From positions 186,001-250,000 of the forward strand of contig NZ_JACHIG010000003.1 in NCBI RefSeq assembly GCF_014203095.1: DNA of 64,000 nucleotides, in the 5' to 3' direction. Numbering within the stretch: the first letter of the stretch is position 1; every line of letters starts with the position of its first letter. This document shows positions 3,314 to 43,114 of this stretch, piece by piece. The notes beneath the pieces were generated by a model. That model was not told the DNA's origin. It saw only the letters and a program-made list of their open reading frames with translations, and did no database searches. This DNA is from Prosthecobacter vanneervenii (GTDB lineage: Bacteria; Verrucomicrobiota; Verrucomicrobiia; Verrucomicrobiales; Verrucomicrobiaceae). The position numbers were made by a program, and so were the translations under genes.

Positions 3314-4219
3314 TCAGGCGCCTGCGGGTTTCCGGCTGAAGCCGCCGACCACGGTGTGATAGCTGCCCCAAAGAACCAGCACACCACCCATCGCCTGGGC
3401 CATGGTAAACGGCTCGGCAAAAAGGGCGATGCTGGAAAGCGAGATGACCAGCGGTACTGTCATCTGGAAAGCGCCTCCAGCGGCCACGGAAAGGAAGCGG
3501 AAGCCTTCCGTCATCGCCAGCTGGCCAAAGCTGGCGCACAGAGCTGCCGTAGTCAGCAGCAGCACATCCATCAGGCTCAGTGTATCAAAATGTGCCATGG
3601 CCAGCGGCAGGGAGAGAAGCAGGGCGTAGATGCACTGGGATGAAAAAATCGTGGCGCTTGTCTCTGTGCGCGTGAGCTGGCGGATGACCACCACCACAGT
3701 GGCGGCAAGCACCGCACCGATGAGAGCGACCATCTCGTGATGGCCAAAGTGAGCGATGGTGCCCGGAGCCAGCCCCGTCAGCAGGCTCAAGCCGGAAAGC
3801 GCCAGCAAGATGCCAAAGAGCTTCACCACCCCCAGCCGCTCATGCAGAACGAAGGCGGCCATGATGGCGGCAAAGATGGTCCAGGTGTTGCCAATGAGCG
3901 TGGCCTTGCCAGCACCCAGCGGCCCGATGGTGGTGTAGTAGGCTGCCGTGCCCAGAGCGCCAAGCACGCCACGCGATGCCAGCAGCCAGCTCTGAAATGA
4001 ACGGCGCAGGTTCAAGGTGCCTGCGGGTGCAAAGAGAATGATGGTCAAGGCCAGGCCGATAGCGGCGCGAAACGTCATCGACATCCATGGATCCACATTG
4101 CGATGCGAGGCCAGATCCTTCAGCAGCAGGGCATTGCCGGAAAAGCAGGCGAGAGAGAGCAGCATGGCCTTTGCGCCGCGCCTTGGATCGAGCTGGAGTT
4201 TAATGTGAGGGGTGCTCAT
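3314..4219 (-). CDS. DMT-superfamily (EamA) exporter
   Basis: 301 residues from the ATG at 4219. Two EamA repeats give about ten hydrophobic segments with short loops, typical of drug/metabolite transporters in the inner membrane. Segments include GLALTIILFAP, LIGNTWTIFAAIMAAFV and GALGTAAYYTTIGPLGAGKA. The substrate cannot be read from sequence; relatives export amino acids, nucleosides or drugs. The frame is open further upstream to 4306, but that extension is strongly basic and unlike the family N-terminus, so the start at MSTPHIK was preferred. It converges on the tamA-like gene with a single base between the two stop codons. Confidence 0.8.
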   Translation of the reverse strand: MSTPHIKLQLDPRRGAKAMLLSLACFSGNALLLKDLASHRNVDPWMSMTFRAAIGLALTIILFAPAGTLNLRRSFQSWLLASRGVLGALGTAAYYTTIGPLGAGKATLIGNTWTIFAAIMAAFVLHERLGVVKLFGILLALSGLSLLTGLAPGTIAHFGHHEMVALIGAVLAATVVVVIRQLTRTETSATIFSSQCIYALLLSLPLAMAHFDTLSLMDVLLLTTAALCASFGQLAMTEGFRFLSVAAGGAFQMTVPLVISLSSIALFAEPFTMAQAMGGVLVLWGSYHTVVGGFSRKPAGA

Positions 4220-17452: not shown

Positions 17453-18207
17453 TGAAACGAGTGACTGTTCCAGAGCCTCCTGAAGTGCGGCGAATCCTTA
17501 AGGCGCAGAGCCGTTTGGGACGCCTTAGAATGCGCTTCGCTATGCGTCTGAAACGGTGCCTCTGGCTGGCTGTCGTGAACGGCACCCATGCTGTGAAGCG
17601 CCTTTTTGACATTGTCATCAGTATCATTGCCCTCATCCTGGCGGCACCGCTGATGATCGTCATCGCACTGCTGATCCGCAGAGATGGCGGTCCGGTATTT
17701 TTCAAACAGCGGCGTATTGGCTTCAACGGCAGGGATTTCGAAATGCTGAAATTCCGTTCCATGTGCGTGGATGCAGAAGCCAAGCTTAGTGCGCTTCTGG
17801 CGCAAAATGAGAAATCCCAAGGCATCACTTTCAAGATGAAGAATGATCCTCGCATCACTGCCATAGGTCGTTTCATCCGCAAGGCATCCATCGACGAGCT
17901 TCCACAATTTTTTAATGTGCTGCGTGGGGATATGTCAATCGTAGGACCTCGCCCCTGTCTTCCGCGAGAAGCGGCGCTCTACTCCAACACGGATCGCAGA
18001 CGCCTTCATGCAAAACCAGGCATCACCTGCCTTTGGCAGGTGGGCGAGCGCGAAGGACGCTTCTGGGAAATCGGAGATCGCAACAGCATCGACTTCGGAG
18101 AGCAGGTCTCACTGGATGTGCGTTATATCGAAAGTCATTCATTTCTGCGTGACCTTTGGATTCTGCTCAAAACAATACCGGCCATCGTTCTAGGGAAAGG
18201 CATGTAA
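17449..18207 (+). CDS. Priming sugar transferase (undecaprenyl-phosphate sugar phosphotransferase)
   Basis: 252 residues of the bacterial sugar transferase (polyprenyl-phosphate hexose-1-phosphate transferase) core. One hydrophobic segment near residues 48-72 (RLFDIVISIIALILAAP), then KFRSMCVDAEAK, the hallmark DELPQFFNVLRGDMSIVGPRP, and CLWQVGER. The short form without the five-helix N-terminal WcaJ domain. It transfers sugar-1-phosphate from a nucleotide sugar to undecaprenyl phosphate, the first step of repeat-unit assembly at the inner membrane. It starts inside the stop of the preceding gene (ATGA). Sugar specificity unknown. Confidence 0.93.
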   Translation: MMKRVTVPEPPEVRRILKAQSRLGRLRMRFAMRLKRCLWLAVVNGTHAVKRLFDIVISIIALILAAPLMIVIALLIRRDGGPVFFKQRRIGFNGRDFEMLKFRSMCVDAEAKLSALLAQNEKSQGITFKMKNDPRITAIGRFIRKASIDELPQFFNVLRGDMSIVGPRPCLPREAALYSNTDRRRLHAKPGITCLWQVGEREGRFWEIGDRNSIDFGEQVSLDVRYIESHSFLRDLWILLKTIPAIVLGKGM

Positions 18208-18209
18208 CC

Positions 18210-19520
18210 ATGGACGTTTTTATCATCTGCCCTGATCACCGTGAAAGCGCCGGATTTGCCCGACGCATCCGCCCGCTGGCACTGCTGCCCGTGCTGGGAA
18301 GATCTCTTTTAGATCTCTGGCTTGAGCACCTAGCAGCTGCGGGAGTCAAACACGCCACTATCTTGGCTGCAGACCGCCCGCATGAAATCCGCCATGCTGT
18401 GGACCAAGGCGGGAAATGGGGCCTCTCCGTAACAGTCCTTTCCGTTAAACGCGAACCCAGCATCGAGGAAACTCGCCAGCGGTTCACCGGCAAGGATTCA
18501 GCCGGCAGAGTGCCTAACATCATCACTCTGGACACTCTTCCTGACATGCCGCACAAGCAGCTTTGGGAGAGCTCGGCAGCACTGCACGACATCCTGCACC
18601 ACCGACTGCTCGTCACTCCAGCCGAGTCGCACCTGACCATGAGGGAGGTCGCGCCCAAGGTTCATGTGAGCACACGCGCCCGTGTGTCAGCTACAGCCAA
18701 AATCGAAGGGCCAGTTTGGATTGGGCCTCAGGTCATCATCGGAGACAACGCCCAAATCCTGGCCGGCTCAGTCATTGAAGAAGCAGCTTACATCGATCGT
18801 GGCGCCATCGTTGGTGATAGCTGGGTGGGGCCCAACACCTATGTTGGAGCGCTGACGAGCGTGCAAAACTCATTTGCCTGGGGAGGTGGTATTGAGAACT
18901 GGCGACACGGATCGTTTCTGGAGATCACGGACGATTTCCTGCTCACCAACCTCACACACAAACCCTTTGGAGGTGTGCGTAGCAACTGGATGGTCCGCAT
19001 CGCTGGACTTGTGCTGATGTTGCTGACTTCACCACTGGCACTTTTGTGCGCGCTATGGTCACTGCTCGTCAAGTGGCAGGCTGTCTTTGAGAATCACCAG
19101 GTAGTTCTGCCGCCCCCTGCAAGACAGGACCGTTACAGCCCAAGCACGCGCATCTATTCGTTAACCTCTGGCCCCGGGCTATTCTCACGGTGGCCGGAGC
19201 TCTGGTCTGTCTGGAAGGGAGACATGCATCTGGTAGGCAATCGACCGCTTTCACCTGCACGCGCATCCGTTTTGACCAATGAGTTTGAACGCATGTGGTT
19301 CGATGCCCCGGCTGGTGTCTTTTCCTATGCAGACATCATGGAGGATGGAATGCCTCATGACAACGATACCGCTCACAGCGCCTGCTACGCCATTCATCGC
19401 TGCCTGAGACTGAACTTGCGCATTTTGTTGCATTGCCTGCCGCGTTTTGCCATTCCCGTGCTCCGCAAGGAGCATGAGATCACACCCAATAACCATACTC
19501 AAACCTGCGCACAGCCATGA
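18210..19520 (+). CDS. Nucleotidyltransferase-like / left-handed beta-helix / sugar-transferase-like fusion
   Basis: 436 residues from the ATG at 18210, two bases after the preceding stop. The N-terminus resembles a sugar-1-phosphate nucleotidyltransferase (IRPLALLPVLGRSLLDLWLEHL) but lacks the usual GxGxRL loop, so it may be inactive. Residues ~150-245 are hexapeptide repeats of a left-handed beta helix (VWIGPQVIIGDNAQILAGSVI). After a hydrophobic segment (GLVLMLLTSPLALLCALWSLL) comes a tail with WSVWKGDMHLVGNRPLSP, which matches the RGDMSIVGPRP element of priming sugar transferases although the rest of that enzyme is missing. It may be a scaffold or regulator of the transferase encoded just upstream; that is inference. 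Confidence 0.7.
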   Translation: MDVFIICPDHRESAGFARRIRPLALLPVLGRSLLDLWLEHLAAAGVKHATILAADRPHEIRHAVDQGGKWGLSVTVLSVKREPSIEETRQRFTGKDSAGRVPNIITLDTLPDMPHKQLWESSAALHDILHHRLLVTPAESHLTMREVAPKVHVSTRARVSATAKIEGPVWIGPQVIIGDNAQILAGSVIEEAAYIDRGAIVGDSWVGPNTYVGALTSVQNSFAWGGGIENWRHGSFLEITDDFLLTNLTHKPFGGVRSNWMVRIAGLVLMLLTSPLALLCALWSLLVKWQAVFENHQVVLPPPARQDRYSPSTRIYSLTSGPGLFSRWPELWSVWKGDMHLVGNRPLSPARASVLTNEFERMWFDAPAGVFSYADIMEDGMPHDNDTAHSACYAIHRCLRLNLRILLHCLPRFAIPVLRKEHEITPNNHTQTCAQP

Positions 19521-19816: not shown

Positions 19817-21589
19817 ATGTCGCATCCACAGCAGCAGTTCAACGGCTTCCGGCTTGATTTTCCAGCAACGCTGGACGATGCCCGTGAAGCCGTCCGTGCT
19901 GTGATCCTGTGGCTGGCCAATGAGAAAGTCAGTGCAGAGGAATGCCAGCAATGGGAGCTGGTGCTGGCGGAAGCTGCGAATAATGCTGTCTTGTACGCAA
20001 CACCGGAGCAGGCAGGACACTCCGTGCGTATTGAAGCAACTCTCGCTCTTGATGAAGTCGAGATCCGCATCACTGACCATACTTGCGGCTTTGACTGGCC
20101 GGAGCATGTCGAGCTGCCAGAAGACGATGAGTCCGATCATGGCCGCGGGCTTTTCATCATCAGTTCGCTCACCGATCAGGCATCCTATCTTCGAGGCCAG
20201 GGGCAAAACGTGCTCCTCCTAAAATCCAAGCTTAAAACTCCGCTGCCAGCCAAAGAGAACACCGAAGAGACGCTTGATCTCATGACGGCGGAAGTGGCCT
20301 CGTGTTACGAAACTCTGGCCAATATTTTCCGGCTCATCGCTGATGCAGGCAATGACGTGGAGCCTGTGGCTCTGGCAACTCGCTGGCTGGAGGAGCTGCG
20401 TGAGCTGGCAGGAGCAGATTTTCTCATCTTACGAATGGCATCCAGTGATGGCCTTCTTATGCCGCTGCTTGGCAGCGCACCCTCCCCATTGAACTGGGAA
20501 GCACATCTCGATCTGCGCAGTGCAGACTATATTGAAAGCAGGGCCGCCAAAACACGACAAGACCAGTGGTTTGACTGTGGCACAGACTTTATGCCTGCAG
20601 ACCCGCTGCTTAAGGCGGGCAAGCACATCAGCGGATTGACGCACCCGCTGGAAAGTGGCGGCGACCTCGCCGGAGTGCTGACCGTCGGCGTCTTCCAGCC
20701 GCACTGGGAGCCTTCAGCGCGTGAATTGAATGTGGTGAGAAGTCTTGGCGATTTTCTCGGTGCATTGCTCCACGGTCTTCATCGGCGTGATGAAGCGAAT
20801 CAAGCACGTCTCATGAAAAGAGAGCTGCAGATCGCAGCGGAGATTCAACGCTCACTGCTGCCGACCGAACTCCCCCAAAGCCCGTTTGTTCATTGTGCCG
20901 CTCATCTTGCCACGGTGGGGGAGGTAGGCGGCGATTACCTCGATGCCATCCTCCTGGCCGATGGCAGCATGCTTTTTGTGGTGGCCGATGTCATGGGCAA
21001 AGGAGTGCCTGCGGCCTTGTTTGCCACCGCGTTTCATAGCCTGCTGCACTCGCACCTTGATCTGGCGTCAAAACCCTCCGCCCTGATGAACCGCCTTAAC
21101 CAGGCCATGTTCTCTGAACTGGACCGGGCGGACATGTTTATCACAGCGCAGCTGGTGCATGTGACAGCTGATGGGCAGTGGCTCCAGGTCTGCGGAGCCG
21201 GGCACGCTCCACTGCTTATGAGCAATGGCAGGCAGGTTCAAGAGGTCTCCGCAGACGGCCCTCCTCTGGGGGTGACTGCCGACGCCAGCTATCAGGACTT
21301 TTCGACCAGCTTTTCTTTGCACTCCCATGTGCTGCTGCACACGGACGGCTTGAGCGATGTGGTCTCAGGCGGGGGCATTTTAAGCCGTGATGTACTACAC
21401 GAATGGCTCCTCAAGACGGCTGCAGGCAGCACCGGAGCAGTCGATGCAAGAGACAGCCTCCATCGCCTCCACCGCAGTGCCGTCGATGCCTCACATCAGC
21501 AAGATGACGCCACTTTTCTAATCATCACTCGAGTCTCTCATTCTCACCCCTCTGCGGCACACAACTCCCTGTCCCATGCAAAAAGATAG
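19817..21589 (+). CDS. RsbW-like ATPase fused to GAF and SpoIIE/RsbU-type PP2C phosphatase
   Basis: 590 residues. Residues ~10-135 form a serine-kinase-type HATPase: N-box ELVLAEAANNAVLYA, G1 DHTCGFDW, G2 HGRGLFII. Residues ~165-330 form a GAF-like sensor. A helical linker (LMKRELQIAAEIQRSLLP, typical before RsbU catalytic domains) leads to the phosphatase at ~355-575 with GGDYLDAI, VVADVMGKGVPAAL, HTDGLSD and QQDDATFLII carrying the metal-binding Asp residues. One chain could therefore both phosphorylate and dephosphorylate STAS partners. Likely substrates are the STAS protein just upstream and the STAS domains of the GT26 fusion at 31307. Opposing activities in one chain imply tight control through the GAF domain, which is inferred. 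Confidence 0.88.
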   Translation: MSHPQQQFNGFRLDFPATLDDAREAVRAVILWLANEKVSAEECQQWELVLAEAANNAVLYATPEQAGHSVRIEATLALDEVEIRITDHTCGFDWPEHVELPEDDESDHGRGLFIISSLTDQASYLRGQGQNVLLLKSKLKTPLPAKENTEETLDLMTAEVASCYETLANIFRLIADAGNDVEPVALATRWLEELRELAGADFLILRMASSDGLLMPLLGSAPSPLNWEAHLDLRSADYIESRAAKTRQDQWFDCGTDFMPADPLLKAGKHISGLTHPLESGGDLAGVLTVGVFQPHWEPSARELNVVRSLGDFLGALLHGLHRRDEANQARLMKRELQIAAEIQRSLLPTELPQSPFVHCAAHLATVGEVGGDYLDAILLADGSMLFVVADVMGKGVPAALFATAFHSLLHSHLDLASKPSALMNRLNQAMFSELDRADMFITAQLVHVTADGQWLQVCGAGHAPLLMSNGRQVQEVSADGPPLGVTADASYQDFSTSFSLHSHVLLHTDGLSDVVSGGGILSRDVLHEWLLKTAAGSTGAVDARDSLHRLHRSAVDASHQQDDATFLIITRVSHSHPSAAHNSLSHAKR

Positions 21590-30090: not shown

Positions 30091-31320
30091 ATGAACATCC
30101 TCGTCGTTTACCCTTACATCCCCTACCCGGTTGACCGCGGCACTTATCAGCGTGTGTTTCACCTGCTGTGTGCACTGGCCAGAGATCACACCATCGATCT
30201 GATCGCGCTGTCTGAAAAGGGTGAGCGGGTGGAACACCGCTGTGTTTTCGAAAAATTTTGCCGCAAGGTGGTCTTCGTGCCCTTTGAGCACCCCCCATGG
30301 CCGAGGCTCTTTCCAAACCGCCTTCTGAACTCACTTCCCACGACCATTCGCCACTGGTGCCTGCCTCAGCTTGCGGACACCATCAGCGATATGCTGGATC
30401 ACAATGAGTACGATCTCGTGCATGTGTGTGACATTGTCATGGCCCAGTACTTTCTCGATGATCACCTTGAGATACCTTTGAGCGTCGATCGCAGCAGAGT
30501 GGATCTTCAGTTTCAGCAGGAACAACATGCCCGCATGCCTAAAGGGCTGAAGTCTTCACTGCTTTACCGCGAACAGGAATGGAAGTTGCGGCGCTTTGAA
30601 CACAAGGTCGCCCAACGCAGCGCCGTGCAAGTCGTCTGCGGTCCAGATGATGAAGAATTCATTCGCTCGGAAGTGAGCATTAAAATGCCCGTGCAGGTAG
30701 TCACCAATGGCGTTGATCTCGACTACTTCAGCCCTGACGGGACAGATGTGCCCCGTGATTCGTCACCCACGCTCATTTACTGCGGCGCCATGGACTACAT
30801 GCCAAATGTGGACGCCTTGCGCTGGTACTTCGAGGAAATTCATCCCCGTGCCAAAAGCCTGGTGCCAGATTTGCAGGTTTTGATTGTTGGAAAATCCCCG
30901 ACTGATGAAGTGCTCTCTTATGGCAGCCTTCAAGATGTCACCGTCACAGGCGGAGTGCCTGATGTGAGGCCTTGGTACCGACGCGCCTGGGCGCAGATAG
31001 TGCCGCTTAGGATTGGCGGCGGTACCAGGCTGAAAATCCCCGAAAGCATGGCCATGGGCACTCCAGTGATCAGCACCACCATTGGTGCACAAGGGCTCCA
31101 GCTGGTGCATGGCATGGATATTCTACTGGCAGACACGGCGGATATGTTTGCGCACTACATCGAGCGCATGCTGCACGACGAAGTTCTGCGTCAGAAAATC
31201 GAAACACGCGGCATGCAGACCTGCAAGGCACGTTTTGGCTGGCCTGGTCTCGGCAGGCAGCTCAGCAGCTACTATTCCAAGCATTTTCAGCCATCGAAGC
31301 AACTGCATGAACACAACTAA
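30091..31320 (+). CDS. GT4 glycosyltransferase of the EpsH/PEP-CTERM-locus-associated type
   Basis: 409 residues from the ATG at 30091 (MNILVVYPYIPYPVDRG), preferred over an in-frame start at 30058. Features are YPYIPYPVDRGTYQRVFHLL, VDLQFQQEQ with a preceding SVDRSR, VVTNGVDLDYFSP, IYCGAMDYMPNVDALRWY, and VPLRIGGGTRLKIPESMAMGTPVIST. This wording is that of the sugar transferases frequently found in exosortase-linked EPS loci, although no exosortase is present here. It overlaps the GT26 gene by 14 bases. Confidence 0.88.
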   Translation: MNILVVYPYIPYPVDRGTYQRVFHLLCALARDHTIDLIALSEKGERVEHRCVFEKFCRKVVFVPFEHPPWPRLFPNRLLNSLPTTIRHWCLPQLADTISDMLDHNEYDLVHVCDIVMAQYFLDDHLEIPLSVDRSRVDLQFQQEQHARMPKGLKSSLLYREQEWKLRRFEHKVAQRSAVQVVCGPDDEEFIRSEVSIKMPVQVVTNGVDLDYFSPDGTDVPRDSSPTLIYCGAMDYMPNVDALRWYFEEIHPRAKSLVPDLQVLIVGKSPTDEVLSYGSLQDVTVTGGVPDVRPWYRRAWAQIVPLRIGGGTRLKIPESMAMGTPVISTTIGAQGLQLVHGMDILLADTADMFAHYIERMLHDEVLRQKIETRGMQTCKARFGWPGLGRQLSSYYSKHFQPSKQLHEHN

Positions 31321-32797
31321 TGCCGCATCCAATCCGCGCAGCGGACCTTCGCTCTCCATTCTCGGGGTCCCATTCGACAATGTGACCACAGGTCAGACTT
31401 TGGAAGTCATTGCAGGCATGATCGCATCGCGAAAGCCGCATTACATCGCTACCGCAAATGTTGACTTCACCGCACTGGCTCTCTGTGATGAGGACCTGCG
31501 GCGCATTCTCCTAGATGCTCATCTCGTTGTCTGCGATGGCATGCCACTCGTCTGGGCCTCCCGATGGCTGGGCAATCCGCTGCCAGAACGCGTGGCGGGC
31601 TCTGATCTCGTCCCGAAACTTCTTGAGATGGCACAAGAGCGAAACTGGAGTGTCTTTTTTCTTGGCGGGCAGAAGGAAGTGGCTGAAATGGCAGTGAGAA
31701 AAGTGCGTGAAAAGCATCCAGATCTGCGGATCGCCGGCATGCTGTCCCCTCCTTTCAAACCGCTGCTGGAAATGGATCATGCGTCAATCTGTGCTCAGAT
31801 TCGCAGCACAAATCCGGATCTGCTCTTTGTCTCCTTCGGCTGCCCAAAGCAGGAAAAATGGATCGCCATGAACTACCTGCAGGCCGGTGCACCTGTCACT
31901 ATTGGAGTGGGAGCCACGATCGACTTCCTCGCCGGCCATATGAAACGCGCACCGCGCTGGATGCAAATGATCGGGCTGGAATGGCTCTATCGCCTGCTTC
32001 AGGAACCACGCCGTCTGTTTAAACGATATGCCACCGACTTCGTTGTGTTTGGCTTGGCAATCGTCAAGCAATGGTGGCTGACACGGAGCGGCAGGCAGAA
32101 AAGCGTCACCACAAGCACGCATGAAATCCCTGCAGCTGTTCCGGTCACAGCACCGCCAGCACCAACATCCAGTATTGCGGAAATTCGCTCCCCATCTCGC
32201 CTGGACGCAGCGGAAGTGCGTTCCATTGAGCAAAGCTGGATGAGCATCCTTGAGGGACCGGAGGAAGGTGTGGTGATTAACTGTGCAGAGACACAATTTA
32301 TCGACAGCACCGGACTCGGGCTGCTGATGCGTGTGCAAAAGCGCTGCCGCCAGTCTGGCAAGCCATTGATGCTGGCCGCTGTTTCCCCTGCGGTGCTCAA
32401 GCTTCTGCAGATGACACGCCTCAGCTCCCTCTTCCATCAGGCAAGCAGTCGGGAAGAAGCTCTGGAGAAGATTATCAGTTCCAGCCTGATGGTCACTCAT
32501 TCTATTCCAAAAGTTGAGCCGCTCCATCTTGACTGGAGTGGTGCTGTGACAACCAGCGGTGCGGATGGACTCTGGCGCGGAGCCTTGGGAGTCATGCAAA
32601 ATGCCGCGGACTCGCGCAACCCTGTCGTCATTGACCTTCAAGGTGTGCAGGTGATGGACAGCGGCGGCCTTGGCCTGATGGCTCGCATCAAGGATCACGC
32701 CAGTAGCCGTCACATCAATCTTCGTTTCACCAATGCCAGCCCCGTGGTGCACGAATCACTGCGCCATGAACATATGGAACACCTCCTCGCCTCATGA
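31307..32797 (+). CDS. GT26 (WecG/TagA/CpsF) glycosyltransferase fused to two STAS domains
   Basis: 496 residues from the ATG at 31307. Residues ~15-255 are a complete GT26 enzyme: LGVPFDNVTTGQTLE, ATANVDF, VCDGMPLVWASRW, RVAGSDLVP, VSFGCPKQEKWI and GVGATIDFLAG. GT26 enzymes add a sugar (ManNAc-type) to lipid-linked intermediates. After a Pro/Ala/Thr linker comes STAS 1 (~288-385, FIDSTGLGLLM, Ser334) and STAS 2 (~405-496, VMDSGGLGLMA, Ser452). Both keep the DS-x-G loop where SpoIIAA-type proteins are phosphorylated. The fusion ties a biosynthetic enzyme to partner switching, with a cognate kinase/phosphatase encoded at 19817. The frame has no stop or composition break between the domains. 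A catalytic role for the fusion partner is not expected; regulation is inferred. Confidence 0.9.
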   Translation: MNTTNAASNPRSGPSLSILGVPFDNVTTGQTLEVIAGMIASRKPHYIATANVDFTALALCDEDLRRILLDAHLVVCDGMPLVWASRWLGNPLPERVAGSDLVPKLLEMAQERNWSVFFLGGQKEVAEMAVRKVREKHPDLRIAGMLSPPFKPLLEMDHASICAQIRSTNPDLLFVSFGCPKQEKWIAMNYLQAGAPVTIGVGATIDFLAGHMKRAPRWMQMIGLEWLYRLLQEPRRLFKRYATDFVVFGLAIVKQWWLTRSGRQKSVTTSTHEIPAAVPVTAPPAPTSSIAEIRSPSRLDAAEVRSIEQSWMSILEGPEEGVVINCAETQFIDSTGLGLLMRVQKRCRQSGKPLMLAAVSPAVLKLLQMTRLSSLFHQASSREEALEKIISSSLMVTHSIPKVEPLHLDWSGAVTTSGADGLWRGALGVMQNAADSRNPVVIDLQGVQVMDSGGLGLMARIKDHASSRHINLRFTNASPVVHESLRHEHMEHLLAS

Positions 32798-33951
32798 AAA
32801 TTGCAATATCCACCAGTGTTATTCAGCGTGGTAAAACTGGCGTGGCCCAGTATGTCCTGGCTCTGACTCGCGCTCTCATGCCCTATACAGATGTGGTCAA
32901 ATTTCACATCCTGGCACTGGCTCAGGACCTGCCGCTTTTTGATTTTGCACGAGGGCGCATGGAGATCATTCCTGTAGATGAGCGGTGGCGCTCCCCAGTG
33001 CGCAACATATGGTGGCACCAGCGCGTGCTACCCCGATGGCTCGATGAGCAGCAGATCGATGTGCTGCATGTGCCGAGCTATCGGCGCATGGTATGTTCTG
33101 CGCACTGCAATCTCATCTCCACCATCCACGATCTGGCCCCCTTTCATGTCAAAAAGAAGTACGATCTGGCCCGAATGCTTTACGGACGCATAGTGGTCAA
33201 GCTTCTTGCCCGGAGACAGAATGGGATCATCGCGGTGAGTTCCAGCACAGCCAGAGATGTCGAGCGCTTCTTCGGCGTCCCAGTGCAAAACCAAAATGTC
33301 ATTCTCAATGGCATCGACCACAGTCGTTTCAACTTAGGCGACCCAGTCGCGGCCCGCACTCTCGTTGAGTCGCGCTGGCAGCTCATGGAGCCATTTTTCC
33401 TCTATGTGTCCCGGATTGAGCACCCGGCCAAAAATCACATACGGCTGATTGAGTCCTTCAACCAGTTCAAAACAAATACAGGCTCCCCCTGGCAGCTGGT
33501 TTTGGCAGGCAGCGACTGGCACGGTGCAGAACACATCCATTCTGCCGCCCGGCAGTCGCCCTTCAGCAAAGACATCCGCTTCCTGGGCTTTGTAGAAGAT
33601 GCCGTGCTTCCAGACTTGTACCGAGCTGCATCGGTCATGGTGTACCCCTCTTTGTTTGAGGGTTTTGGCCTGCCTCCGATCGAAGCCATGGCATGCGGTT
33701 GCCCGGTCATCTGCTCCAATCGGGGATCGCTGGCAGAGGTTGTAGGATCAGCTGCACGTATCATCAATCCGGAAGATCAAGCTCAAATGGCCGACGCGCT
33801 TCAGGATGTCGCCATCCATCATGAAAAGCGGGAGTCTCTGATTCAGGCCGGTCTTCTCAATGCAAGGCGTTTCAACTGGGACGAAAACGCCAAACGCGTC
33901 ATGGAAGTTTATGAAAAGCCCTTCACAGGTTCCCGCAGTTGGGGGGGTTGA
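32794..33951 (+). CDS. GT4 glycosyltransferase
   Basis: 385 residues, GT-B of the mannosyltransferase/WbaZ-like GT4 group. Elements are STSVIQRGKTGVAQYVLAL at the N-terminus, TIHDLAPFH, AVSSSTARDVERFFGVP, FLYVSRIEHPAKNHIRLIE, PSLFEGFGLPPIEAMACG (E-x7-E) and CSNRGSLAEVVGSAARIINPED. Starts inside the stop of the GT26-STAS gene. The last few residues (SRSWGG) and the stop are formed by a copy of the dispersed palindrome, so the natural end has been replaced. Confidence 0.92.
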   Translation: MKIAISTSVIQRGKTGVAQYVLALTRALMPYTDVVKFHILALAQDLPLFDFARGRMEIIPVDERWRSPVRNIWWHQRVLPRWLDEQQIDVLHVPSYRRMVCSAHCNLISTIHDLAPFHVKKKYDLARMLYGRIVVKLLARRQNGIIAVSSSTARDVERFFGVPVQNQNVILNGIDHSRFNLGDPVAARTLVESRWQLMEPFFLYVSRIEHPAKNHIRLIESFNQFKTNTGSPWQLVLAGSDWHGAEHIHSAARQSPFSKDIRFLGFVEDAVLPDLYRAASVMVYPSLFEGFGLPPIEAMACGCPVICSNRGSLAEVVGSAARIINPEDQAQMADALQDVAIHHEKRESLIQAGLLNARRFNWDENAKRVMEVYEKPFTGSRSWGG

Positions 33952-33954
33952 GAC
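33930..33954 (+). repeat. Dispersed GC-rich palindrome, copy 4 (forms a gene end)
   Basis: TTCCCGCAGTTGGGGGGGTTGAGAC. It shares the right flank GGGGGTTGAGAC with the copy at 38624, so homology extends beyond the palindromic core. It supplies the last codons and the stop of the glycosyltransferase gene. Confidence 0.65.
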
Positions 33955-33988
33955 GTCGTATAATGAAGCGGACATTTCTTCATACAAA

Positions 33989-34849
33989 ATGTCGAACTTC
34001 CTTCAGCACTGGCAGCTAGACGTGAAACCTTTTGAGGCCACGTGGGACACGCGTTTCTATTACCGAAGCCCCCAGCATCAGGAGGCATTGGACAGGCTGA
34101 TTTATCTGGCCTCCGAAAAAACCATGAACCTGGGCATGCTCACAGGTGAGATCGGCTGCGGAAAGACGATCACCACTGCCATCCTGGCCCAAAGCCTGGA
34201 CCCATGCGCATACATTGTCGTCAGCTGCACAAATTCGGGATTCAGCTTCGATGAGCTGCTGCAGTATATCCTCTGGCAGCTTGACCCTGAGGCCACGCAT
34301 ATGCCGGAAAGCAAATTCGGCCGCTGCGAGCACCTGAAAAAACTTTGTGAAAGTGCCGCATCACGTGGCAGACACGTGATTGTTCTCCTCGACGAGGCCC
34401 AGGATCTGCCGGAAGACACTCTGCGTCAGCTTGGATGGCTGACAAACTTCAATGGAGAAGGCAGGCCTTTGTTGACCCTGCTTCTCATAGGCCAGCCTCC
34501 GCTGCGTCGGCTAGTGAACAACAATCAGGCGATTCAACAGCGGATCGGCCTCCGGTTTCACCTGCTTCCTCTGGCCCAGGAAGCCACGGCAAACTATGTC
34601 ACTCACCGTTTGAAGGCGGCAGGGCATTCAGATGGCTCTCTCTTCGATGAAGATGCGCTCATCCACCTGCATCATTTCTCGCGGGGCATTCCGCGCGAAA
34701 TCAATCGCACTGCGAAACTCTGCATGGAACATGCCTGGGCGTCAGGGGATGAACGCATCACTGCACAAATTTTGCACGACGTGGCATGTGATTTGTACCG
34801 TCAGGACAACCTGATCAGCAGCGCCGCCGTGCTTGCCAGCGCCACATGA
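33989..34849 (+). CDS. ExeA-type AAA ATPase
   Basis: 286 residues from the ATG at 33989 (MSNFLQHWQL); the frame is open upstream inside the preceding gene, but the family begins here (WxLxxxPFExxxDTRFYY). Walker A GEIGCGKT at residues 53-60, Walker B VIVLLDEAQDL, sensor LTLLLIGQPPLR, and the C-terminal HHFSRGIPREINRTAKLCMEHA. ExeA-like ATPases power secretin assembly in type II secretion; close relatives sit in many EPS loci beside Wzz/Wza genes, as here. Overlaps the Wzz-Wza fusion gene by 4 bases, supporting a shared role in polymer export or length control. Confidence 0.88.
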   Translation: MSNFLQHWQLDVKPFEATWDTRFYYRSPQHQEALDRLIYLASEKTMNLGMLTGEIGCGKTITTAILAQSLDPCAYIVVSCTNSGFSFDELLQYILWQLDPEATHMPESKFGRCEHLKKLCESAASRGRHVIVLLDEAQDLPEDTLRQLGWLTNFNGEGRPLLTLLLIGQPPLRRLVNNNQAIQQRIGLRFHLLPLAQEATANYVTHRLKAAGHSDGSLFDEDALIHLHHFSRGIPREINRTAKLCMEHAWASGDERITAQILHDVACDLYRQDNLISSAAVLASAT

Positions 34850-37800
34850 ATGCGACGCCTACAACGTCCTTCAGCCTTTCGGCCATCAATCGCAAGCGCG
34901 GCATCACCAGCCCAGCTCCACGGCAGCCGGATGCCTTTGTGCGGGCCGAGTCACCCGCATTTTCCGCTTCTTCAGTGCCTTTGGCAGCAGAGGCTGAGTC
35001 TCCACAGCCCGCCATCAAGCTGCCATTTGACCCTTTAAGGATCATTGATGCGCTGGTCCGCCGATGGTGGCTCATGCTAGCCTTTGGCATCGCATGTGCA
35101 GGAGGGATGTTAGCCTTGGGACTGCTGCGTTTTGAAACCCTTTACACAGCTAAATCCCAGATCATCAAACAACAGCTCGCGTCTGCATTTCGGCAGTCGG
35201 ATTCAGGAGAGTCTTTCAAACCCAGCGACCTCACCATCCCCACGCTGATGTCTCTGATGTACTCCGGCTCCACCATCGCCACTACCAGCAATCAGCTGGG
35301 ACATCGCTTTGAAGAAAGCGCCATCCGCTCAGGCCTGATTGTTTCCGCAGAGCGCAATACTGACATTCTAAACATCAGCATGACATCAAACGTCAGCGCC
35401 GAGGCTGTGATGGAAATGCTGAAAGCCTACACGGAAACAGTGCTCCTGCTGTCCCGTGATCTTCAGCGCGGAGACGCCTCCGCAATGAAGACATTTTTGC
35501 AGAAGCAGATTGAACGCACAGACGCCGATCTCCTGAAAGTCAACGAGGAGCTCCTGGCCTATGGTCGTCAGTCTCAATTGCTGGATGCCGACAAACAGAT
35601 GGACGCCTGGCTGGGAGAACTGGGTAATTTCACCCTTAAGTATGAGACTCTTAAGCTCGATCACGATACTCTTGATCTTCGCATTCAAGGAATAGAGCGC
35701 GAACTCGGCAAGGTGGACACAAACGCCGCACGTGTGGACAGCGCGAAAAAAGAGCTCGCTGAACTCAGGGTGCGCTACACAGACGAGCATCCTTCCGTCA
35801 TTGAGGCAGTGGAGAAACTCAATGCCTTGGAGCAGCAGATGAAAAATTCCGGCCTCCGCACCGATGCACCACCAAAGCCCGGTGAAAGCAATGTGGCTGA
35901 GAGCCTTTACCTGGATCTGGTGCGTCTGCGCGCAGAGAAACAGGTCATGGGAGAGCAGTTGCAGAAGCTGCTTCAGGTGCGCGAGGGCATTAATGAGCGT
36001 CTGGCGAAGCTGCCACGCCAGGCCATGGAGTACGCCCAGATCAAATCCCGCAAGCAGACACTCGAAACCTCCCGCGCGCTGTTGTCAGGGAGACAGCGCG
36101 AAGCCGCTCTCTACGAGGAAAATTCACAGGGCTACTTCAGGCTGTTTTCCATGGCACGCGTACAGGATGTTAGCGCCGTCAAGCCCACGCAAAAACTCGC
36201 CATGGTGGGAGCTGGCGGATTTGGAGCTGGCGTCGTTTTGACAGCTCTGCTTGTGATTGCCTCCTCTCTCTCAGACGGCCGCATGCTCAGCAGCGGAGAT
36301 TTGAAACGCGCCACCGGCGCCCCCGTTCTCGGTGCTCTGCCTGCATCCCGCACCACAGAAAGTGCGGATGAATGGGCTTTCCGCACCTGGACCAAGCTGC
36401 AGCCCGTGCTCCACACGCCAGCAAATGGGGGAGGCATAGTCTGCGGCGTCCTTCACAGTGCAGAAGACGATGCCGCCGAACACTTCATCCACCTGCTTGC
36501 CAAAGCAGCAGTGCGCCGAGGTCTCAGCTGCATATGCATCACCAGCAAACTGACTGAAGATGCCCTGGCGCTCAGCAGCGCAGTTGAGAACCCGGAACGC
36601 CCCGCACGCATCTCACACGATGTTTCTGACCGCCCGTACCTAATCGGCATGGATGAGGAATGGCAGTGGACCCCTGAACACAGAATGCACTGGCAGGCCG
36701 CTCTTGCGCACTGGCGTCAGCTGCCCGGCACCGTAATCCTTATCGAACTGCCTTCCGTCGAGCGCCCAGAGACGCTGCTCATTGCCGAACAACTGCCGAA
36801 CCTCATCTGGGCAGGCTCCAGTGGTGGAAGCCTGGTGCAAAAGATCCAGGACACTCTGCTCATGTATCGTGATGCCGGTTGCAGGCTGGTCGCCGCATTG
36901 CTGGACCGGGCGCCGGAACTGCGTCCTGCCTTGCTGGCCCGCTTTGCCATCCTCGCGCTCTTGCTTGGCGGCAGCATCCCCGCCCAGGCACAAACCAGCC
37001 TTCCGCTGGGTCCCGGCGATGCCATAAACATCAACATGCCCGGATTCGAAGGCCATGAACGAAAGGACATAGCCGTGGGTCCGGATGGCAGGCTGACTTA
37101 TCTTCAGGCTCATGATATTGAGGCCGCAGGACTCACCATCGATCAATTGCGCGAAAAGCTGAATCTTGAGCTCAGACGCTACTATCGTAATGCGCGTGTG
37201 GTGGTCACGCCCTCCACATTTCAGAGCCGCAAAGTTTACGTGCTTGGAAAGGTCGTCAAAAAAGGTGCCATCAATCTGGACCGCCCTTTGACCATTCTTG
37301 AGGTGGTTTCAGAAGCAGGCGGATTGGAGACAGGTTTGTTTCAGCAAAACACCGTCGAGCTCGCTGACCTAGGCCGCAGTTTCGTCATGCGGGGGCAGTC
37401 TCGGCTCCCGGTCAATCTTGAGGCCTTATTTCTGCACGGCGACATGTCTCAAAACGTGCGCGTAGAGCCTGGCGACTACCTCTATTTCCCATCCGCAAAT
37501 TCCAATGAAATCTATGTGCTCGGGGATGTAAAAATGCAGGGCACCCAGGGTCTGCTGGCCCACACCTCCGTCCACAGTGCCATCGCGCAGGCCGGAGGCT
37601 TTACCGCAAAAGCCTACAGCAAACGTGTTCTGGTGGTTCGCGGCTCCTTTGAGAAGCCGGAACGTTTCATCGTGGACATGGATGATGTACTCACCGCGCG
37701 CGCCAAAGGCTTCCGTCTGGAGCCGAAAGACATTGTCTATGTGGCCGACAAGCCATGGGCGCGCGCAGAGGAGCTGCTCCACATAGCGATCAATGCCTTC

Positions 37801-37881
37801 CTTCAGGGGGCGGTGTCAAGCTGGACCAGGGCCAACATAGGGCCCTACATCCAGCAGCCTTTGCTCCCTCAGATCCGCTGA
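34846..37881 (+). CDS. Wzz-like chain-length protein fused to degenerate BY-kinase and Wza/SLBB export domain
   Basis: 1011 residues. The Wzz/GumC-like part has TM1 at ~74-94, a long periplasmic coiled coil (~110-440) and TM2 at ~451-474, preceded by the Pro-containing segment VSAVKPTQKLAM. Next is a cytoplasmic region like a BY-kinase ATPase (~500-690) in which the P-loop position reads VLHSAEDDAAEH with no GxxGxGK[ST], and VILIELPSVERPE stands for Walker A'; no Tyr cluster follows. A third hydrophobic segment (~696-713, ending SIPAQA) leads to a Wza-type domain: LPLGPGDAININM, then SLBB repeats VYVLGKVVKKGAI and IYVLGDVKMQGTQ. Three TMs place the Wza-like domain in the periplasm. Alternatively SIPAQA is cleaved like a signal peptide and releases it. 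Usually these are three separate proteins. Confidence 0.88.
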   Translation: MNATPTTSFSLSAINRKRGITSPAPRQPDAFVRAESPAFSASSVPLAAEAESPQPAIKLPFDPLRIIDALVRRWWLMLAFGIACAGGMLALGLLRFETLYTAKSQIIKQQLASAFRQSDSGESFKPSDLTIPTLMSLMYSGSTIATTSNQLGHRFEESAIRSGLIVSAERNTDILNISMTSNVSAEAVMEMLKAYTETVLLLSRDLQRGDASAMKTFLQKQIERTDADLLKVNEELLAYGRQSQLLDADKQMDAWLGELGNFTLKYETLKLDHDTLDLRIQGIERELGKVDTNAARVDSAKKELAELRVRYTDEHPSVIEAVEKLNALEQQMKNSGLRTDAPPKPGESNVAESLYLDLVRLRAEKQVMGEQLQKLLQVREGINERLAKLPRQAMEYAQIKSRKQTLETSRALLSGRQREAALYEENSQGYFRLFSMARVQDVSAVKPTQKLAMVGAGGFGAGVVLTALLVIASSLSDGRMLSSGDLKRATGAPVLGALPASRTTESADEWAFRTWTKLQPVLHTPANGGGIVCGVLHSAEDDAAEHFIHLLAKAAVRRGLSCICITSKLTEDALALSSAVENPERPARISHDVSDRPYLIGMDEEWQWTPEHRMHWQAALAHWRQLPGTVILIELPSVERPETLLIAEQLPNLIWAGSSGGSLVQKIQDTLLMYRDAGCRLVAALLDRAPELRPALLARFAILALLLGGSIPAQAQTSLPLGPGDAININMPGFEGHERKDIAVGPDGRLTYLQAHDIEAAGLTIDQLREKLNLELRRYYRNARVVVTPSTFQSRKVYVLGKVVKKGAINLDRPLTILEVVSEAGGLETGLFQQNTVELADLGRSFVMRGQSRLPVNLEALFLHGDMSQNVRVEPGDYLYFPSANSNEIYVLGDVKMQGTQGLLAHTSVHSAIAQAGGFTAKAYSKRVLVVRGSFEKPERFIVDMDDVLTARAKGFRLEPKDIVYVADKPWARAEELLHIAINAFLQGAVSSWTRANIGPYIQQPLLPQIR

Positions 37882-37929: not shown

Positions 37930-38613
37930 ATGATCGCGACTTTGGGGCCCAAATCCACGCCACCTTCTGAGATTAGAGCTTTGCATGTGGCCATCATCGA
38001 GGACGACCCGACCTTGCGTCTTTTTTTGCAAAAGCTTGTCTCTAAGCCGGGATCACAGCTTGAATTCTCCGGCGCTTGGGAAAGCGCCGAGGCTGCTGCC
38101 AAGCCCCTTTTAGATACCCGCCCTGATGTGGTGGTCGTGGACCTTGAGCTACCCCACATGTGCGGCATGGACTTGATCCGCCATCTGTCCCCACGCATGC
38201 CAGCCACGGCATTTTTAGTGCTCACCATTCATGATGATCCGCAAAAGGTCTTTGCCGCCTTGCGAGCCGGAGCCAGCGGCTACCTTTTGAAAAGCGCCAA
38301 GCCTGCGGAGATCGTCGCGGGAATCCGCCAGGCTTATGCGGGCGGTGCTCCGCTGAGCCAGGAAATAGCGCGCATGCTCATTCAGTCGTTTCAAGCTCCA
38401 GCCAAAACAGAGCGCAAACGCATGCCAGGCCTGACTCCGCGTGAAAGCGAGATCCTGGATCTCCTGGCCAAGGGCATGGTGCCCAAGGAAGTGGCCGACC
38501 AGCTGAGCCTCAGCTACTCCACCGTGCGTGACTACCTCAAGGCTGTCTATGCCAAGCTGCATGTGCGCTCACGCACTGAGGCTGTTCTCAAATACCTCGA
38601 TCAGACAAAGTAG
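37930..38613 (+). CDS. LuxR/NarL-type response regulator
   Basis: 227 residues. Receiver domain with AIIEDDPTLR, phospho-acceptor Asp71 in VVVVDLELPHMCG, VLTIHDD and YLLKSAKPAE. The C-terminal LuxR helix-turn-helix reads LTPRESEILDLLAKGMVPKEVADQL, then STVRDYLKAVYAKLHVRSRTEAVLKYL. It begins 48 bases after the Wzz-Wza fusion gene. A clear paralog (222 residues) lies at 42446. A likely transcriptional output of the hybrid kinase at 13212, which has the needed HPt domain; the pairing is inferred from location. Confidence 0.93.
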   Translation: MIATLGPKSTPPSEIRALHVAIIEDDPTLRLFLQKLVSKPGSQLEFSGAWESAEAAAKPLLDTRPDVVVVDLELPHMCGMDLIRHLSPRMPATAFLVLTIHDDPQKVFAALRAGASGYLLKSAKPAEIVAGIRQAYAGGAPLSQEIARMLIQSFQAPAKTERKRMPGLTPRESEILDLLAKGMVPKEVADQLSLSYSTVRDYLKAVYAKLHVRSRTEAVLKYLDQTK

Positions 38614-38677: not shown

Positions 38678-39760
38678 ATGAAAGCCACTGTATTGGCCAC
38701 CTGCTGCGTGCTCATTCTCAGTTCCTGCGCCTTGATGAAGGAGCAGAAAAAATTTGATGCTCGCAATGATGCCTCCACCACCACTGCTGCTTTCACCCAG
38801 ACAAAGCGCCAGGAGCCCATCAAGCCTGAGTGGCTCAAACCTTCGCCCAGACCTTTCGCCCTGGGGCCAGGCGACAAATTGGAAATCGAAATCCTAGGGG
38901 AAACGGGCACTAGAACAGACACCTTCGTCACCCCGGACAGCAAAGTCTATTTTGATCTGCTGCCAGGCATTGATGTAAAAGGCAAAACCACTACTCAGCT
39001 GCGGGAAGAGATGGAGAAGCTGCTGGCTCGCTACTACAAGCAGCCCCAGGTGAGCCTCACATTGCGCGAGGTGAGCAGCCAGCGCGTCTGGGTGCTTGGA
39101 CGAGTAAATGCTCCCGGAATCTATCCACTGAACCGCCCGCTGAGAGTTCTTGATGCCGTCACCCAGGCAGGCGGTCTCTTCACCTCCCGTTTCACTGGCA
39201 CCACTGAAGAGCTGGCGGACCTCAGCCATAGTTTCTTGATCCGTGGTGGCAAGACGCTGCCGGTGGATTTTCAAAAACTCATCCGCGAAGGCGACCTGAG
39301 TCAAAACATCTATCTGGAGCCAGATGATTTCATATACCTCCCATCCGCCCTCACGAATGAGATTTATGTTCTGGGCGCAGTCACCGAGCCAAGACCCGTT
39401 GGCTTCATGAACGAGATGAATCTGATCACCGCGCTCGGTCGTGGCCTCGGCATACGCCTCGATGCAGATCTGGCTCATGTGACGATCGTTCGCGGCTCCT
39501 TGACTGAGCCTAAGATCGCCACCGTCAATGCCAGCGACATCATTCAGGGCAGGTCCACCAATGTACGCCTTGAACCCGGCGACATCGTTTACATACCAGG
39601 TGCCGGCAGCATGTCTCCCGGCGGATTCCTGCATGACGCTGTCAACACTTTCACCCGTTTGGTGGCAGCCAACGAAGGCAACGCCGCAGGCTCGGCACAT
39701 GCCACCCCGATCGGTGTGAATGTAAACATCGGCGGCACCGGAAGCAGTTCAAACCAATGA
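38678..39760 (+). CDS. Wza-like polysaccharide export lipoprotein
   Basis: 360 residues from the ATG at 38678, chosen because it begins a lipoprotein signal (MKATVLATCCVLILSSC, lipobox LSSC, Cys17) and has an AGGGAA-type ribosome site upstream. Polysaccharide export domain: FALGPGDKLEIEILGE, VYFDLLPGIDVKGKTTTQL, YYKQPQVSLTL; then SLBB repeats VWVLGRVNAPGIY and IYVLGAVTEPRPV. It should sit in the outer membrane as the export channel. Its SLBB half aligns closely with the C-terminal domain of the fusion at 34846 (for example DLSQNIYLEPDDFIYLPSA against DMSQNVRVEPGDYLYFPSA), so one is a duplicate of the other. Confidence 0.92.
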   Translation: MKATVLATCCVLILSSCALMKEQKKFDARNDASTTTAAFTQTKRQEPIKPEWLKPSPRPFALGPGDKLEIEILGETGTRTDTFVTPDSKVYFDLLPGIDVKGKTTTQLREEMEKLLARYYKQPQVSLTLREVSSQRVWVLGRVNAPGIYPLNRPLRVLDAVTQAGGLFTSRFTGTTEELADLSHSFLIRGGKTLPVDFQKLIREGDLSQNIYLEPDDFIYLPSALTNEIYVLGAVTEPRPVGFMNEMNLITALGRGLGIRLDADLAHVTIVRGSLTEPKIATVNASDIIQGRSTNVRLEPGDIVYIPGAGSMSPGGFLHDAVNTFTRLVAANEGNAAGSAHATPIGVNVNIGGTGSSSNQ

Positions 39761-42392: not shown

Positions 42393-42445
42393 GGAACTTT
42401 CAGAAGTACCACACTTTCCGTGTGTCTTTTGATCCTCTCTCAGTC

Positions 42446-43114
42446 ATGAATACCTCACGCCCTTTCATTCGTGTCGCTTGCGTCGAAGATGACCCCTTGT
42501 TTCAGGCGTTGTTAAAAAAAGTGCTGGTTCCTCAGAAGGGCTTTGATCTGGTGAATGTATTTAACAATGCTGAACAAGCATTGGCTACTATCATGGAGAC
42601 ACGACCGGACGTCGTGCTTCTTGATCTCAAGCTTCCAGGAAAGACAGGCATCGACTTCCTGCACATGGTCGAGTCTCATATGCCCGCGACCGCCTTTGTC
42701 ATGCTCACTGGGGATGACACTCCGCAGCAGGTGTTCGCCGCGCTCAAGGCAGGAGCCTGCGGTTACGTCTTGAAGACTGCTCCTCTTGATCATCTGCTGG
42801 AGGCGGTTCGCACGGCCGCAGTAGGTGGCAGCCCGCTGAGCCCCACCATCTCTCGTGTCGTCATCTCGGCCTTCCAAACCAAGCTGTCCGCCCAGCCCCC
42901 GCGTATTCCCGGCATCACCCATCGTGAGAATGAACTCCTGAGTCTGTTCGTCAAAGGCCTCAGCGCCAAGGAAGCCGCCTATGAGATGGGCATCAGCTAT
43001 GAAACCGTCCGGGACTATCTCAAGACGATCTACCAAAAGCTCAAGGTGAGGTCTCGCACAGAGGCGGTGCTTAAATACGTCAAAAATCAGCAGGGCCCCG
43101 TGCTCGCTTTCTGA
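42446..43114 (+). CDS. LuxR/NarL-type response regulator (paralog)
   Basis: 222 residues from the ATG at 42446 (a GTG eight codons upstream is less likely). Receiver: ACVEDDPLFQALLKKV, phospho-acceptor Asp60 in VVLLDLKLPGKTG, VMLTGDD, YVLKTAPLD. LuxR helix-turn-helix: THRENELLSLFVKGLSAKEAA and ETVRDYLKTIYQKLKVRSRTEAVLKY. The layout, the spacing and the shared ending KVRSRTEAVLKY mark it as a duplicate of the regulator at 37930. It has its own upstream gap and may be transcribed separately. Its stop directly abuts that of the convergent Wzy/ligase gene. Confidence 0.93.
   Translation: MNTSRPFIRVACVEDDPLFQALLKKVLVPQKGFDLVNVFNNAEQALATIMETRPDVVLLDLKLPGKTGIDFLHMVESHMPATAFVMLTGDDTPQQVFAALKAGACGYVLKTAPLDHLLEAVRTAAVGGSPLSPTISRVVISAFQTKLSAQPPRIPGITHRENELLSLFVKGLSAKEAAYEMGISYETVRDYLKTIYQKLKVRSRTEAVLKYVKNQQGPVLAF

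Follow-up and report, generated by a model that had tools for sequence, protein, structure and literature searches.

The window, a 64,000-nucleotide stretch of the Prosthecobacter vanneervenii genome, contains an exopolysaccharide cluster with genes for a priming transferase, a Wzx-like flippase, a Wzy_C protein, several glycosyltransferases and an acyltransferase. Within this cluster, one gene remains open for 1011 codons, and its single frame carries a Wzc-like co-polymerase (PCP), a dead BY-kinase domain and a Wza-like OPX part. Homology and the gene neighbourhood together point to a role of the fused gene in polysaccharide export. The main features are listed below, with residues numbered as in the fused protein.

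33860..34849, forward strand: AAA_22 (TIGR03015-like) ATPase gene, directly upstream, with an ATGA overlap with the fused gene
34846..37881, forward strand: fused ORF, 1011 aa, 111 kDa, ATG start
35065..35130, forward strand: TM1, residues 74-95 (AlphaFold helix, hydrophobic run)
35140..36180, forward strand: periplasmic PCP (Wzz/Wzc-like) domain, residues 99-445 (fold match to Wzc, FepE and WzzE)
36187..36273, forward strand: TM2, residues 448-476 (AlphaFold)
36292..36912, forward strand: BY-pseudokinase domain, residues 483-689 (profile matches to CapAB, Etk and BceF; fold Z 20.5 to CapAB)
36454..36489, forward strand: eroded P-loop HSAEDDAAEHFI, residues 537-548, aligned to SAKAGEGKSTLI of the related locus L049
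36922..36990, forward strand: putative internal signal peptide, residues 693-715, predicted cut after AQA (A715), from sequence features
36991..37878, forward strand: OPX (Wza-like) part, residues 716-1011, 33 kDa, with Poly_export and two SLBB
37759..37836, forward strand: C-terminal helix, residues 972-997, candidate outer-membrane helix like Wza residues 345-376
38678..39760, forward strand: second OPX, lipoprotein type (LSSC lipobox), downstream

Homologues of the second OPX are also present downstream in relatives, in most complete loci and always after the first OPX; 38 of 56 carry a lipobox by a strict pattern, and more do by eye. Two NarL-type response regulators are encoded in the cluster (37930-38613 and 42422-43114, both forward strand), one of them between the OPX genes. 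A WecG/TagA-type glycosyltransferase (31082-32797, forward strand) carries a pair of STAS domains, with DSTG and DSGG motifs, at its C-terminus; a SpoIIE phosphatase from the same cluster (19817-21589, forward strand) combines GAF with RsbW-like ATPase domains. These two proteins might control polysaccharide synthesis by partner switching. An ORF just after the intact priming transferase (18156-19520, forward strand) joins hexapeptide repeats to a bacterial sugar transferase domain of which the C-terminal part is present.

A full-chain AlphaFold model of the fused protein, built from a 53-row alignment (mean pLDDT 82.5), places TM1 and TM2 on either side of a helical domain (residues 99-445), followed by a Rossmann-type domain at 483-689 (pLDDT about 90), a short helix at 694-708, a disordered stretch at 709-715, the OPX domain at 721-966 and the terminal helix at 972-997. 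Wzc and Wza were the top Foldseek matches of this model. In VIA-align superpositions, residues 63-698 matched Wzc (Z about 20), residues 477-691 the CapAB kinase (Z 20.5, rmsd 2.6) and residues 716-1000 Wza (Z 17.9). The chain thus shows the features of a PCP-2a protein, namely two TM helices around a helical periplasmic domain and a cytoplasmic BY-kinase fold. Similarly, Poly_export (714-788) followed by two SLBB matches, all over the Pfam cut-offs and within 714-932, is the arrangement of a class 1 (Wza-like) OPX, and a PDB sequence search matched residues 721-979 to Wza. The terminal helix aligns to Wza up to residue 376 and is weakly amphipathic; no Wza_C Pfam match was obtained for it. 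The Pfam Wzz score of the fused protein is below threshold (14.1 of 25.5 bits), the sequence being too diverged for the profile although the Wzc fold is still matched. Scores for TIGR03027, TIGR03007 and TIGR03015, which bear on a link to exosortase XrtA, were below their respective cut-offs. A sequence-only reading of this DNA had proposed one polypeptide joining Wzz, dead tyrosine-kinase and Wza-like domains, with TM1 and TM2 flanking the first of these, and the open frame, the fold matches and the model agree with it. Its own reservation, that the middle domain might prove not to be ATPase-like, falls with the BY-kinase fold found both by profile search and by fold comparison.

A profile of the kinase segment matched the solved BY-kinases CapAB, Etk and BceF in the PDB (best E 5e-6); with NCBIfam, the segment of the window protein gave no match and other members gave weak BY-kinase matches. 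The loss of the P-loop lysine and of the tyrosine cluster, noticed earlier from the sequence, was confirmed by motif alignment, and the Walker A' aspartates are absent as well. Across the family, the P-loop erodes from GEGKST (L049, L075) through GEGRST (several fused and split members) to an unrecognizable sequence in the window clade. The aligned position has no Walker A' aspartates, even in the GEGKST rows, Walker B mostly reads hhELP, and tail tyrosines are few or none. The domain therefore lacks the Walker A lysine, the Walker A' and B aspartates and the tyrosine-rich tail of an active BY-kinase, and is a BY-kinase fold without catalytic motifs, as in EcpK; it lies inside the PCP chain and is not a stand-alone pseudokinase. 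Since no P-loop lysine, Walker A' aspartate or tyrosine tail remains, autophosphorylation cannot cycle assembly, and a scaffold role for the pseudokinase is probable. Death of the kinase and fusion are not coupled: split relatives show the same motif losses, which means that the kinase was lost either earlier than the fusion or separately from it.

The sequence-only reading had called for a search for the same fusion in other genomes, and about 30 relatives, spread over at least 10 families of a single Verrucomicrobiota class, were found to have it free of stops. Among named genomes, 48 loci were detected, nearly all of them in Verrucomicrobiota (three were from Cloacimonadota and one was labelled Bacteroidetes). 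By domain mapping, some loci encode the fused Wzz-kinase-OPX chain, others have PCP and OPX as split genes, and others again are incomplete contigs. Full-length stop-free fusions at 81 to about 47% identity came from a family-wide protein search, and order and class searches added fusions in further families; one family (f30) contains both fused and split states. In a phylum-wide sample, OPX matches outside the class sit in open frames too short for a fusion. In about 30 other relatives, PCP and OPX are encoded by two adjacent genes, often with an ATGA overlap (14 of 27 split relatives compared). At three loci, a single in-frame stop (TGA or other) parts PCP from OPX: L051 (near 8095), L069 (near 7918) and L111 (reverse strand, near 3610); in all three, the OPX frame runs straight on. 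These loci are intermediate states between fused and split.

That a sequencing or assembly error joined two adjacent genes might be suspected from the single-stop loci, in which one stop is all that parts the genes, and from the many MAGs among the relatives. However, about 30 assemblies obtained independently, with identities as low as about 35%, share this open frame, and two of the fused relatives are single-contig genomes (G067, G375). A stop or start hidden near 36950, which the sequence-only reading had named as grounds for rejecting the fusion, is ruled out, as is a frameshift at the junction, by the open junction frame of all fused relatives, and the probability of an artefact is negligible.

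Where the two genes are split, the PCP frame closes no more than a few residues from the kinase domain, and the OPX has a signal peptide of its own at the start. The third hydrophobic segment of the fusions occupies the same place as this N-terminal signal peptide. The order at the fusion junction is basic residues, a short core, mostly an [AVTL]xA motif, a variable linker and the conserved LGxGD of OPX. In the window protein, the predicted site is AQA|QTSLPLGPGD, after residue 715, and SIPAQA spans residues 710-715. The median uncharged run is shorter in the third segment than in TM1 of the fusions (16 against 20, p 1e-4). A loose [AVSTGLIC]xA motif gave no clear separation (26/27 third segments, 18/27 TM1) and, as this count separated poorly, a weighted -3/-1/+1 signal-peptidase score was then used as a second attempt at the same question. 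With a scoring matrix that is a rough approximation made for the present analysis, the third segment scored higher than TM1 of the same proteins (p 7e-4) and no lower than the signal peptides of split OPX, with TM1 flanks exceeding 5 bits in 6 of 27. A few fusions have poor cleavage sites (L075 and, by the scored position, L034). Overall, the segment looks cleavable in nearly every fusion by its basic n-region, short core and AxA-type site, and a signal peptidase I gene was found in the genome. At the sequence level, two domains that relatives make as separate proteins are thus joined through an internal signal peptide. The third hydrophobic segment had been proposed to return the chain to the periplasm; this topology is supported, and the correspondence of the segment to the OPX signal peptide of relatives sharpens the earlier reading.

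A secretion signal in mid-protein suggests that the chain is probably cut into two working parts after synthesis. Alternatively, translation starting inside the gene could supply some or most of the OPX part, and the fused frame would then be incidental. The window has an in-frame ATG (36862), preceded by a weak SD-like AGGA, and a TTG (36931) upstream of the segment. Among the 27 fusions compared, however, no start position is conserved, four have no start within 30 codons and only six have one with an SD-like motif, which makes an internal start improbable.

The headline of the sequence-only reading was a lasting covalent link, and maturation of the protein into two parts was mentioned there in passing as a possibility. 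If the chain stayed uncut, residues 694-708 would be a permanent third TM helix and a single-chain exporter would couple both membranes at a fixed ratio. The segment is hydrophobic enough to span a membrane, one uninterrupted frame is kept in many lineages, and E. coli Wza and Wzc make an 8:8 complex (PMC12881504). However, signal-peptide features are kept across very diverged fusions, and split relatives, which carry the same OPX with its signal peptide at the N-terminus, do well without the link. Linkers after the segment vary from a few to about 60 residues and measure 6-13 in the window, while the arms of Wzc, in the structure cited in PMC9601211, stand out from the inner membrane by about 60 A or more. 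An uncut OPX in the window protein could therefore hardly reach the top of the PCP arms to dock there. A lasting link is thus rather unlikely, and maturation into two parts is the better supported of the two suggestions. It is likewise doubtful that the whole chain serves as co-polymerase and outer-membrane translocon, with a dead kinase, a 1:1 ratio and an inner-membrane anchor, the lipoprotein OPX completing the gate.

The history of the family was followed on an OPX-domain tree of 31 fused and 30 split rows, in which both the outgroup and the lineages at the base have the split arrangement. Five changes of the fused state are needed on this tree, at least four of them forced by well-supported branches, gain and loss being indistinguishable in these counts and gene transfer being possible. 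An earlier, smaller tree gave four changes, at least two of them forced. A single clade of fusions was rejected (AU p 0.0013). Repeated switching with the signal peptide kept is expected if the fused and the split form give rise to an identical pair of mature proteins.

We consider it probable that the gene encodes a precursor of two proteins, which signal peptidase I would separate at an internal signal peptide by cutting after A715, and that the two parts are supplied 1:1. The two parts would be successive components of a Wzx/Wzy-type exopolysaccharide exporter. TM1 and TM2 would insert as an inner-membrane PCP (to about residue 700), leaving the pseudokinase in the cytoplasm, and the internal signal peptide (693-715) would start a second translocation, exporting the C-terminal Wza-like OPX. 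Cleavage by signal peptidase I, most likely after A-Q-A715, would then yield equal amounts of two products, a PCP of 78 kDa that keeps a short membrane stub at its end and an OPX of 33 kDa. The PCP would stay in the inner membrane and the OPX would pass to the periplasm and outer membrane, and the parts would meet again as Wzc and Wza do. The single frame would guarantee the 1:1 supply, in place of the ATGA translational coupling of many split relatives.

Two-protein precursors with an internal signal peptide are, to our knowledge, rare in bacteria, and the occurrence of fused and split homologues makes the precursor idea directly testable. The repeated joining and separation is independent evidence that co-polymerase and OPX act as a unit in equal number, as is also suggested by Wza-Wzc cryo-EM. 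The dead kinase implies export free of phosphorylation cycling through much of one bacterial class, and the family fits a non-cycling, phosphorylation-free version of export. Surveys of domain architecture should be read with caution, as such precursors may be counted as single working proteins.

The families of each part are known, and so is an internal signal peptide between two envelope proteins. Bradyrhizobium FbcH, the cytochrome b/c1 precursor, is one gene for two envelope proteins that are separated at an internal signal peptide. The fused PCP-OPX would work alike, the FbcH proteins themselves being unrelated; cleavage is reported for Bradyrhizobium and is only predicted for the Verrucomicrobiota protein. 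No published PCP-OPX fusion was found in the literature searched, whose coverage was partial and hence no proof of absence.

Three structural classes of OPX proteins have been described (PMC9603273), and no PCP-OPX fusion was found in the passages searched. With Poly_export, SLBB and a C-terminal helix, the present protein is most like class 1 (Wza), and differs from the classes described there in that a longer chain carries the OPX signal peptide in its interior. In Myxococcus xanthus, the BY pseudokinase EcpK acts with its PCP, EpsV, and a scaffold role has been proposed (PMC12004946). EcpK likewise has a BY-kinase fold, has lost the Walker motifs and tyrosine tail and acts with a PCP-2 (PMC12004946); however, it is a separate cytoplasmic protein, whereas here the pseudokinase lies within the PCP chain and is joined to OPX. 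In the Wza-Wzc complex of E. coli, which exports capsule and colanic acid, the OPX D1 domain docks on the PCP forearm, octamer on octamer, and a kinase-dead mutant stabilizes the octamer (PMC12881504; PDB 9r64, 2j58). Both halves of the fused protein match this complex by fold, in the same order from inner to outer membrane. In contrast, E. coli uses two genes and an active kinase with Walker motifs and a tyrosine tail, and its Wza is a lipoprotein that is longer by about 60 residues at the N-terminus; the present model matches Wza only from residue 82.
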